NCBI GenBank assembly: GCA_903900235.1
Contig: CAIUMH010000025.1
Location: 1 to 40,885 of the forward strand
Source: an uncultured Actinomycetes bacterium
Lineage (GTDB): Bacteria; Actinomycetota; Acidimicrobiia; Acidimicrobiales; RAAP-2
Reading direction: 5' to 3'
DNA: 40,885 bases
In this document: in pieces, positions 33,960 through 37,182 of the stretch
Layout of the letters: the number at the start of each line of letters is the position of its first letter
Position numbering within the stretch: position 1 is the first letter of the stretch
Notes under the pieces: model-generated
The model's input: only the letters and a program-made list of their open reading frames with translations
Told to the model about the DNA's origin: nothing
The model's database searches: none
Made by a program: the position numbers and the translations under genes

Positions 33960-34645
33960 CAGGCCGACTCCTCCGTGTTCTCAGGGGTCGTCGGGAGGGT
34001 GGCGTCGGTGAAGACGACCCACTCGGACCGGATGATGTCGTAGGGGTTCAGTTCGCCCGCAACGATCGTGTGGACGTTCTGGAGGTTGGCGAAGCTGCGA
34101 CGGGCCACCACGTCCTCACGACTCAATACCACGAGGACATGTCCATCGAGGCCGAGTGCCGCAAGGGCGGCGATGGCGTCCTTCGTCTTCGGTGACTCCC
34201 AGGTGAAGGAATCAACGAGGGCGATCCTGTTCTCGATGGCACGGTCCGAGAGGGCCGACCGCAACGCAAGGCGAATCATCTTCTTGGGAGTCTTCTGGGC
34301 GTAGCTGCGAGGCTTCGGCCCATGGGCAACCCCACCACCCACCATGTTCGGGGAGCGAGACGAACCCTGACGAGCCCGGCCGGTTCCCTTCTGGCGGAAC
34401 GGCTTGGCCCCGCCACCGCGGACCTCGGCCCGCGTCCTGGTCGACTGGGTTCCACTGCGAGCCGCAGCCAGCTGTGCGGTGATCACCTGGTGGAGTACCG
34501 GGCCGTTGGGCTCGATGCCGAACATCTCGAGGTCGAGGTCGACCGTTCCGAGGACCTTCCCGTCCTGGTCGCGACGTTCGACGGAGCGCTGCGTGGGAAC
34601 CGGACGATCCTTGACGATCGGGCGACGAAGAAGCGTATCGCTCAC
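33959..34645 (-). CDS. rplD: 50S ribosomal protein L4 (uL4)
   Basis: A 228-residue protein with an exit-tunnel loop (TRTRAEVRGGGAKPFRQKGTGRARQGSSRSPNMVGGGVAHGPKPR). In gamma-proteobacteria L4 also represses the S10 operon by binding its leader RNA, which is relevant to the structured leader just upstream of rplC here. The GTG start overlaps the rplC stop as GTGA. Confidence 0.98.
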   Translation of the reverse strand: MSDTLLRRPIVKDRPVPTQRSVERRDQDGKVLGTVDLDLEMFGIEPNGPVLHQVITAQLAAARSGTQSTRTRAEVRGGGAKPFRQKGTGRARQGSSRSPNMVGGGVAHGPKPRSYAQKTPKKMIRLALRSALSDRAIENRIALVDSFTWESPKTKDAIAALAALGLDGHVLVVLSREDVVARRSFANLQNVHTIVAGELNPYDIIRSEWVVFTDATLPTTPENTEESA

Positions 34646-35304
34646 TTGGCACCTCCACCCTTGCCCGAAGGCACCTTGACCGAATTGCGGAGCACGACGG
34701 TGCCGCCGCGAGAACCGGGGACGGCCCCCTTGACCAGCACGATGCCACGCTCGGCATCTACCCGAACGATCTGCAGGTTCGTCGTGGTGACCTGCTGGCC
34801 ACCCATGCGACCGGCCATGCGGGTTCCCTTAAAGACACGGCCTGGGGTGGCACAGCCACCGATAGACCCCGGCACGCGGTGCGCCTTGTGGTTACCGTGG
34901 CTGGCTCCCTGGCCCTTGAAGTTGTGACGCTTCATGCCACCGGCAAAGCCCTTGCCCTTGCTGACCGCAATGACGTCGATCTTCTCCCCGGCCTCGAAGA
35001 TATCCACCGAGATCTCTTGGCCGACGACGTAGTCGCCCACCGAATCAAGTCGGAGCTCCATCACCTGGGCACCAGGCTCAACGCCTGCCGCCTCAAAGTG
35101 TCCTGCCTCTGGCCGGTTGATCCGACTGGCCTTCTTCGTCCCCCAGGTGACCTGGAGTGCGGAGTAGCCATCGGTCTCAGGCGTTTTGACCTGCACGACC
35201 CTCAGGGGCGCGACCTTGACGGCCGTGACCGGGATGGCCCGGTTCTCCTCGTCCCAGATCTGGGTCATGCCGGTCTTCTCGCCGACGATCGCCTTCGTTG
35301 CCAC
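34642..35304 (-). CDS. rplC: 50S ribosomal protein L3 (uL3)
   Basis: A 220-residue protein. It starts at GTG (MATKAIVGEKTGMTQIW), with AAGGAAGG upstream. KGFAGGMKRHNFKGQGASHGNHKAHRVPGSIGGCATPGRVFKGTRMAGRMGG is the conserved loop reaching the peptidyl-transferase centre. It is separated from rpsJ by an unusually long, structured 255-nt gap. Confidence 0.98.
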   Translation of the reverse strand: MATKAIVGEKTGMTQIWDEENRAIPVTAVKVAPLRVVQVKTPETDGYSALQVTWGTKKASRINRPEAGHFEAAGVEPGAQVMELRLDSVGDYVVGQEISVDIFEAGEKIDVIAVSKGKGFAGGMKRHNFKGQGASHGNHKAHRVPGSIGGCATPGRVFKGTRMAGRMGGQQVTTTNLQIVRVDAERGIVLVKGAVPGSRGGTVVLRNSVKVPSGKGGGAK

Positions 35305-35324
35305 GATGTGACCTTCCTTGCCGG

Positions 35325-35498
35325 GTGTCGACGGTTACGCCGACACGCCAACGCTCCGCTCGGGGGGTCCCGAGCGGAGCGCTCGACTGGTGTGGCCCGG
35401 TGTCCCTCCACTTGGAGGCTGCCGGGCACATCTGCTGTTGGGCGCCTGCATCACGCAGGGGCCAGAGAGCTCACCCGCTCCGAAGAGCAGGGTCTCTC
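35325..35498 (-). ncRNA. Structured leader of rplC: five consecutive hairpins (candidate cis-regulatory RNA)
   Basis: In transcript order: (1) 35498-35465, with a GCTC/GAGC stem capped by a UUCG tetraloop, extended by ACCC/GGGT and GAGAG/CTCTC; (2) 35463-35441, CCTGC/GCAGG plus GGC/GCC; (3) 35427-35395, GCCCGG/CCGGGC outer and CCTCC/GGAGG inner stems; (4) 35381-35352, a perfect 13-bp stem with a 4-nt loop; (5) 35346-35325, GTGTCG/CGACAC. No T-run follows any stem, so these are not plain terminators. The whole lies between rpsJ and rplC. By analogy with S10-operon leaders it may mediate feedback by an encoded r-protein, but the ligand is unknown. Confidence 0.55.
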
Positions 35499-35528
35499 AC
35501 CCTAGTCGGTCCACTCCCCCTCCGCCAA
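35499..35528 (-). promoter_or_regulatory. Predicted promoter of the rplC-rplD-rplW... unit
   Basis: Minus-strand TTGGCG (35528-35523), an 18-nt spacer and TAGGGT (35504-35499). The start would be near 35492, so the transcript would begin at the UUCG hairpin and have a leader of about 190 nt. The -35 is identical to the one predicted at infA, and the spacer equals that at groES. Confidence 0.45.
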
Positions 35529-35559
35529 CCCGGCGGTGATGACAGCGGCCGGACGAGGG

Positions 35560-35868
35560 CTACTGGATCTTGATCTCGATGTCCACGCCCGCTGGGAGGT
35601 CAAGGCGCTGAAGCGAATCGACCGTCTTGGGGGTGTGCTCGATGATGTCGACAAGCCGCTTGTGCACACGCATCTCAAAGTGCTCGCGAGAGTCCTTGTA
35701 CTTGTGTGGCGAACGGATCACCGTGTAGCGGTGCTTCTCGGTCGGGAGCGGGACTGGACCTTGGACCTTCGCCTGCGTGCGGAGGACCGTCTGCACGATC
35801 TTCTCCGTCGACTGGTCGAGGATCTCGTGGTCGTAGGCCTTGAGCCGGATCCGGATCTTATTGGCCAT
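35560..35868 (-). CDS. rpsJ: 30S ribosomal protein S10 / NusE (uS10)
   Basis: A 102-residue protein with [23 protein letters not shown] and [39 protein letters not shown]. It also acts as NusE in antitermination. It is 32 nt upstream of... the tuf gene precedes it in transcription, and the structured rplC leader follows its stop. Confidence 0.98.
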
Positions 35869-35900: not shown

Positions 35901-37085
35901 CTACTTGAGGATCTTGACGACGCGACCGGCGCCGACAGTGCGGCCACCTTCACGGATGGCGAACCGAAGGCCCTCATCCATGGCGATCGGCTTGCCGAGC
36001 TCGACCGTCATCTCGGTGTTGTCACCCGGCATGACCATCTCGGTGCCAGCAGGCAGCGAGATCGAACCGGTGACGTCCGTGGTGCGGAAGTAGAACTGCG
36101 GTCGGTAGTTGGCGAAGAACGGCTTGTGACGGCCACCCTCATCCTTGGTCAGCACGTAGACGTTGGCCTCGAAGTTGGTGTGGGGAGTGATCGATCCCGG
36201 GGCACAGAGAACCTGGCCTCGCTCGACGTCTTCCTTCTTGGTGCCACGGAGCAGGGCGCCGACGTTGTCGCCAGCCTGGCCCTGGTCGAGGAGCTTGCGG
36301 AACATCTCGACACCGGTGATGGTGGTCTTCTGCGTGTCGCGCAGACCCACGATCTCCACCTCGTCGCCGACGTTGACGATGCCCTGCTCGATCTTGCCGG
36401 TCACCACGGTGCCACGGCCGGTGATGGACATGACATCTTCGACGGGCATCAGGAACGGCTTGCTCACGTCACGCTCGGGCTCAGGGATGAAGCTGTCGAC
36501 AGCGTCCATCAGTTCAAGCACCTTCGGAGTCCACGCCTCATCGCCCTCGAGGGCCTTGAGGGCAGAAACGCGAACGATCGGGGTGTCGTCACCGGGGAAG
36601 TCGTACTCGGAGAGGAGCTCGCGCACCTCCATCTCGACGAGGTCAAGAAGCTCCTCGTCATCGACCATGTCGGCCTTGTTGAGCGCGACCACGATGTACG
36701 GAACGCCTACCTGGCGAGCGAGCAGCACGTGCTCACGAGTCTGCGGCATCGGGCCATCGGCGGCCGAGACCACGAGGATGGCACCGTCGACCTGAGCAGC
36801 GCCGGTGATCATGTTCTTGATGTAGTCAGCGTGACCCGGCATGTCGACGTGGGCGTAGTGACGAAGGTCCGTCTCGTACTCGACGTGGGCGATGGAGATC
36901 GTGATGCCTCGCTGGCGCTCCTCCGGGGCCTTGTCGATCTGGTCGAAGGGGGTGAACTCGGTACCGTTCTTGTCGGCGAGCACCTTGGTGATGGCGGCCG
37001 TCAGGGTCGTCTTGCCATGGTCAATGTGACCCATCGTCCCGACGTTGACGTGCGGCTTGGTGCGCTCGAACTTCTGCTTGGCCAT
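35901..37085 (-). CDS. tuf: Elongation factor Tu
   Basis: A 394-residue GTPase that brings aminoacyl-tRNA to the ribosome. G1 is [12 protein letters not shown] (16-27), the G2 region is RGITI (59-63), G3 is [12 protein letters not shown] (81-92) and G4 is NKAD (136-139). The G3 motif has Met82 where nearly all EF-Tu proteins have Cys (DCPGH). The start [16 protein letters not shown] is used; the longer frame adds 15 non-conserved residues. It follows fusA by 169 nt containing two hairpins. Confidence 0.98.
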
Positions 37086-37182
37086 TTCGGGGACCTCTCC
37101 CTGGTGCTGAGCGGACCCCCTCGGGCCCACCGATTGTCTTCTGGTTGGTTGCTTGAACTTCTTGGGTTTCTCACTCTCCCCC

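Follow-up and report, generated by a model that had tools for sequence, protein, structure and literature searches.

The S10 operon of Escherichia coli is the textbook case of autoregulation by the ribosomal protein uL4. The uL4 site is reported to be narrowly distributed (PMC10931766) and, given this, the way in which S10 operon expression is balanced in other phyla remains largely open. We propose that in the Acidimicrobiia the 3' part of the gap between rpsJ and rplC is the 5' UTR leader of an independently promoted rplC-rplD-rplW-rplB... operon, under feedback control by a ribosomal protein, and assign this reading a probability of about 75%. On our best reading of the sequence comparisons, the RNA would be a new ribosomal-protein leader for an S10 operon that here starts at rplC. 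A single-copy, class-wide, covarying leader located one gene downstream provides a concrete and testable candidate regulator for one lineage.

The window, a 40,885-nt stretch of DNA whose nearest relatives are Acidimicrobiales metagenome-assembled genomes, carries the following elements, given in the order in which they would be transcribed:

35560-35868, minus strand: rpsJ (S10), last gene of the upstream tuf-rpsJ unit, identified by Pfam.
35499-35560, minus strand: H0, a hairpin directly after the rpsJ stop (minimum free energy (MFE) fold), with the candidate promoter inside it (the -35 at or close to its loop, the -10 within its 3' base).
35523-35528, minus strand: candidate -35 element TTGGCG, read from the sequence and enriched at equivalent sites in relatives.
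35499-35504, minus strand: candidate -10 element TAGGGT, read from the sequence, with TAnnnT at equivalent sites in relatives.
35474-35492, minus strand: P0, a UUCG-capped hairpin at the predicted 5' end of the leader (MFE fold), a family-level feature with compensated equivalents in close relatives, judged by eye.
35441-35463, minus strand: a second hairpin between P0 and the core (MFE fold), conserved at most in close relatives.
35342-35435, minus strand: the conserved core of about 94 nt, matched by covariance model R1 at 89 bits.
35394-35432, minus strand: P1, a hairpin with an asymmetric internal loop (..G/CC...GG/RAC..) and a covarying stem, from the alignments and covariation tests.
35350-35383, minus strand: P2, a 13-bp hairpin with a nearly invariant lower stem, followed by a conserved GCGUG, from the alignments.
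35325-35346, minus strand: P3, a variable hairpin between P2 and the ribosome-binding site that overlaps the conserved GCGUG, from the MFE fold and the folds of relatives.
35312-35319, minus strand: Shine-Dalgarno-like AAGGAAGG of rplC, read from the sequence.
34642-35304, minus strand: rplC (L3), first gene of the proposed controlled operon, identified by Pfam.

The spacer between rpsJ and rplC is exactly 255 nt long. It stands out as exceptional, since the junctions downstream of it either overlap (rplC/rplD by 4 nt, rplD/rplW by 1 nt) or are separated by only 10 nt (rplW-rplB). The identities of S10, L3, L4, L23 and L2 were confirmed by Pfam, and tuf precedes rpsJ on the minus strand at 35901-37130. 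With a GC content of about 69%, the gap has a predicted minimum free energy of -145.3 kcal/mol, as low as which none of 200 dinucleotide shuffles fell (z -4.74). An earlier note on this DNA had described an almost fully structured 255-nt gap amid tightly spaced genes, and both the ORF coordinates and the shuffles bear this out. The UUCG-capped hairpin and the perfect 13-bp stem that it reported are also present, as P0 and within P2 (CGCUCCGCUCGGG/CCCGAGCGGAGCG) respectively. Its treatment of the whole 255 nt as leader holds in part: roughly the last half, comprising the core and the variable hairpin, is conserved beyond the family, and the rest is not.

The two candidate promoter hexamers are separated by 18 nt. 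A strict sigma-70 scan of the leader called no promoter, this pair included. The promoter proposed in the earlier note nonetheless gains support from its equivalents in relatives. When scored for a TTGACA-like and a TAnnnT box 16-19 nt apart, the sequence preceding the core reaches at least 7 in 72% of genomes and 12% of shuffles, and at least 8 in 36% and 5%, respectively. Within the window's family, a long, near-perfect hairpin follows the rpsJ stop with the -35 in its loop; its stem sequences differ from genome to genome, with folding z-scores of -4 to -9.7. At eight further loci (L007, L012, L046, L117, L134, L142, L147 and L174), as at 35499-35560 in the window, the -35 lies in the hairpin loop and the 3' arm forms the promoter spacer. 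Judging from sequence, hairpins of this type look like the terminator of the upstream tuf-rpsJ unit merged with a promoter. A short hairpin just after the -10 recurs in close relatives with compensated stems (judged by eye), the window's version being the UUCG hairpin. The leader RNA proper would then begin just after approximately 35492-35498, and the upstream 60 nt would constitute a separate, promoter-containing hairpin.

In the conserved 3' half, the gap alignment runs from P1 through P2 (GCUCCGCnCGGG...CCCGnGCGGAGCG), GCGUG and the variable P3 to the Shine-Dalgarno sequence. The P2 motif GCUCCG...CGGAGC is nearly invariant among the matches, and the flanking GAYGU and GCGUG are conserved, while the 5' hairpins upstream of the core show no conservation beyond close relatives. 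R1, a covariance model of 98 positions, detects the core in most of the genomes sampled from the same order (241 of 297; 207 of 242 when only good ones are counted). Within the class it matches 118 of 247 genomes, including members of many families outside the order. Across the phylum sample, 26 of 296 genomes match, 23 of them in the class; the three weak matches outside it (G367, G421 and G589; E 1.7e-4 to 7.9e-4) were taken as chance, and the only one fetched, G421 (locus L248), has no rplC nearby. The window's own genome holds one R1 site; at E < 0.1 the only further hit comes from the palindrome of this site on the opposite strand.

Genomic context ties the RNA to rplC. The core lies directly upstream of rplC in 178 of the 180 matches examined for context, with the rplC start downstream in 177, at a median distance from the core of 45 nt (range 10-196). 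The remaining three comprise one match truncated inside rplC, one at a contig end, and L248, which belongs to another class and lies away from rplC. In Acidimicrobiales relatives the rpsJ-rplC gap is neither absent nor unstructured, spanning 174-600 nt or more with the core conserved, while in Actinomadura, Streptomyces, Micromonospora, Nocardioides and similar genera it measures about 10-30 nt. Across the matched loci the rpsJ-rplC distance varies from 180 to 1678 nt, and the core keeps its place next to rplC. Furthermore, in several lineages of the class, represented by L053, L063 and L088, rpsJ and the RNA have an opposite-strand gene between them. With this gene in the way, transcription from rpsJ is unlikely to reach rplC at these loci, and rplC would need its own promoter within the RNA's interval; the same arrangement indicates that the RNA belongs to rplC. 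The inserted genes (L053 2793-3851, L063 2948-4189, L088 2904-4070) encode a 2OG-Fe(II) oxygenase or an AI-2E family transporter, as identified by Pfam for L053 and L088 and by likeness to L088 for L063.

Class members in which rpsJ and rplC are nearly adjacent (L255, L257, L259, L260, L262, L263, L264 and L065) have no core. Four loci of the class retain P1 while P2 is degenerate or missing: L254, L252, L258 and L261, the last two judged partly by eye, with P2 apparently lost from L252, L258 and L261. This pattern suggests that P1 is the essential part. At L009, L016, L028, L033, L034 and L123, the core lies about 165-196 nt from the rplC start, and additional predicted structure fills the interval. 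One contig labelled as a Bifidobacterium breve MAG (L054) carries an Acidimicrobiia-type rpsJ-rplC region together with the core, and its label looks wrong.

The covariation across relatives that the earlier note had called for was found in several ways. RNAalifold, run on a MAFFT alignment of the gaps that had not been fitted to the model structure, predicted 22 base pairs, 15 of which change on both sides. When 99 distinct sequences were aligned to the model, 93.7% of cells were paired and both-side changes occurred in 19 of the 22 pairs; none of 500 shuffles reached any pairing measure of this alignment, and slid controls paired in 36-49% of cells. Since this second alignment is fitted to the structure of R1, we added a tree-based null, a simplified, home-made version of R-scape in which Fitch changes are re-placed at random on a FastTree tree and scored with an APC-corrected G statistic. 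Of all 4278 column pairs, the five that rank highest are base pairs of P1, and four of these reach E < 0.05. The P2 lower stem proved too conserved to covary in this test, and because it hardly varies its pairing rests on complementarity instead. GU/UG cells number 87 on this strand against 35 AC/CA cells, which favours an RNA transcribed in the sense of the genes.

How such a leader might act can be outlined by analogy with known ribosomal-protein leaders. Feedback by a ribosomal protein is suggested by the gene context, the lineage-restricted, covarying RNA and its invariant loop letters. RNA polymerase would start just downstream of the TAGGGT box, and the transcript would fold into a short 5' hairpin followed by the P1-P2 core, the end of which lies about 45 nt short of the rplC start codon. 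When a ribosomal protein outnumbers its rRNA targets, it would then bind the core, with the P1 internal loop as the likeliest contact, and binding would lower expression of the operon. Only 47 of 140 folds pair the Shine-Dalgarno sequence, so its sequestration by the core is not the rule. A coding-strand scan of the leader found no intrinsic terminator with a U-tract; a GC-rich actinobacterial type lacking the U-tract may have escaped it. With the Shine-Dalgarno sequence mostly unpaired and no terminator recognised, no switching element is visible; for the same reasons, control is probably exerted when translation of rplC initiates or early in elongation.

Several explanations that involve no ribosomal-protein ligand were also weighed. 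Chance structure in GC-rich spacer DNA, for which the GC content of the gap would be the main argument, is already refuted by the comparative data, and we regard its probability as negligible in view of the folding z-score, the class-wide conservation and the covariation. The almost invariant arms of P2 are palindromic in DNA and could point to an operator or nucleoid site, with the RNA structure incidental. This is very improbable, as P1 covaries and its sense-strand pairs include G-U, P2 sits between the promoter and a nearby start codon in 178 of 180 cases, and R1 identifies just one site per genome, as judged from the window's genome. Somewhat easier to entertain, yet still unlikely, is an element for mRNA stabilisation, processing or transcription pausing that has no specific protein ligand. 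The great stability of P2, with its invariant lower stem, and the recurrence of the 5' terminal hairpin P0 in close relatives would fit such an element. A stabiliser, however, would not need conserved single-stranded letters in the P1 loop, nor the flanking GAYGU and GCGUG.

If the RNA is a ribosomal-protein leader, as we prefer, two kinds of ligand are possible, and we hold them equally and only tentatively. One is a protein of the operon itself, uL4 (or uL3 or uL23), which would bind a separately evolved RNA in the way that uL4 binds its E. coli leader. The genes for L3, L4 and L23 come first in the gene order, and control of the S10 operon by uL4 is established in E. coli (PMC10931766). Against this, the E. 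coli leader region does not resemble R1, an rRNA descriptor based on P1 (below) finds nothing in 23S rRNA, and the E. coli uL4 site is reported to be restricted even inside the gamma-proteobacteria (PMC10931766). A hand scan of 23S rRNA for leader motifs located GCGUGAA near GGAACC in domain I; this candidate was dropped, as the region folds differently and could not be tied to L4.

The other possible ligand is a protein of the 30S head, either uS10, encoded by the upstream rpsJ, or its neighbours uS3 and uS14 (the uS3 gene, rpsC, is expected within the S10 operon). P1 would in that case mimic the internal loop of 16S h38/h39, and the operon would be tuned to small-subunit assembly rather than to L4. 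Both P1 and h38/h39 consist of a helix with a 3-nt/4-nt internal loop (..G / RAC.) and CC-GG inner closing pairs, and the P1 invariants (5' ..G-CC, 3' GG-R-A-C) match the 3x4 loop UUG/RACU of the Rfam structure. They differ in the sequences of the inner hairpin and outer helix, and h38/h39 has no counterpart of P2. A descriptor combining the P1 letters with a stem of at least 5 bp matches each of 11 16S sequences, E. coli included, exactly once, at h38/h39 and with a 7-bp stem, and has no match in three 23S sequences; the chance expectation per shuffled 16S is 0.03-0.11 for stems of at least 5 bp and 0-0.03 for a 7-bp stem. In yeast, h39 is reported to be bound and stabilised by uS10 (PMC10695388), whose gene lies just upstream of the RNA here. 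The descriptor is nevertheless post hoc and fits exactly in only 38-40 of 100 leaders, and R2, a P1-only covariance model, singled out no rRNA site, h38/h39 included. Moreover, the uS10 contact is eukaryotic and may concern the tip of h39 rather than the internal loop, and uS10 is described as a late binder (PMC10695388), unlike most known autoregulators. We therefore regard the h38/h39 likeness as an only suggestive lead pointing away from L4. The earlier note's reading is thus supported in part: a structured, covarying leader before rplC with a candidate promoter of its own, unmatched in Rfam and distinct from the E. coli S10 leader, stands, autoregulation and the binding of L3, L4 or L23 are conjectural, and the one rRNA resemblance found is to 16S h38/h39, in the S10/S3/S14 neighbourhood, and not to 23S. 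The boldest form of the proposal, in which a class-wide, undescribed leader splits the S10 operon after rpsJ and senses uS10 or uS3/uS14 through a 16S h38/h39 mimic, so that a 30S protein rather than L4 governs L3-L4-L23-L2, is a doubtful one. Were the resemblance real, it would link the expression of large- and small-subunit genes.

The comparison with described systems most likely makes this leader an addition to the ribosomal-protein leaders, with no match in Rfam or the open literature. Searches of Rfam 15 at gathering and permissive thresholds returned nothing usable for the leader. This is weak evidence of novelty, because the E. coli S10 leader has no Rfam match either. No description of the leader was found in full-text searches of open-access papers. 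The conserved, structured RNA in the 5' UTR of a ribosomal-protein gene that defines such leaders is present here. Like the sites for uL1, uS15, bL20, uS8 and L10(L12)4 (PMC10931766), the Acidimicrobiia RNA has an irregular stem with an internal loop and lies just upstream of the first ribosomal-protein gene, and in common with such leaders generally it is lineage-restricted and possibly resembles rRNA. It differs from them in its gene (rplC) and its taxon (Acidimicrobiia), in matching no family in our Rfam copy, and in that its regulation is deduced. With the uL4-regulated S10 leader of E. coli, it shares a long, structured 5' UTR and an operon containing rplC-rplD-rplW-rplB, and like that leader it is preceded by a promoter, here a candidate one. 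The two come from different phyla, and the U-tract terminator/attenuator of the E. coli leader has no recognised equivalent on the coding strand here. As the earlier note had supposed, they also appear to be distinct RNAs: searched with R1 with filters off, the E. coli S10 leader locus gave a best score of 2.9 bits and no match in sequence or structure. Finally, the E. coli leader precedes rpsJ and that of the Acidimicrobiia precedes rplC, one gene later, suggesting that the S10 block has no fixed regulatory boundary.
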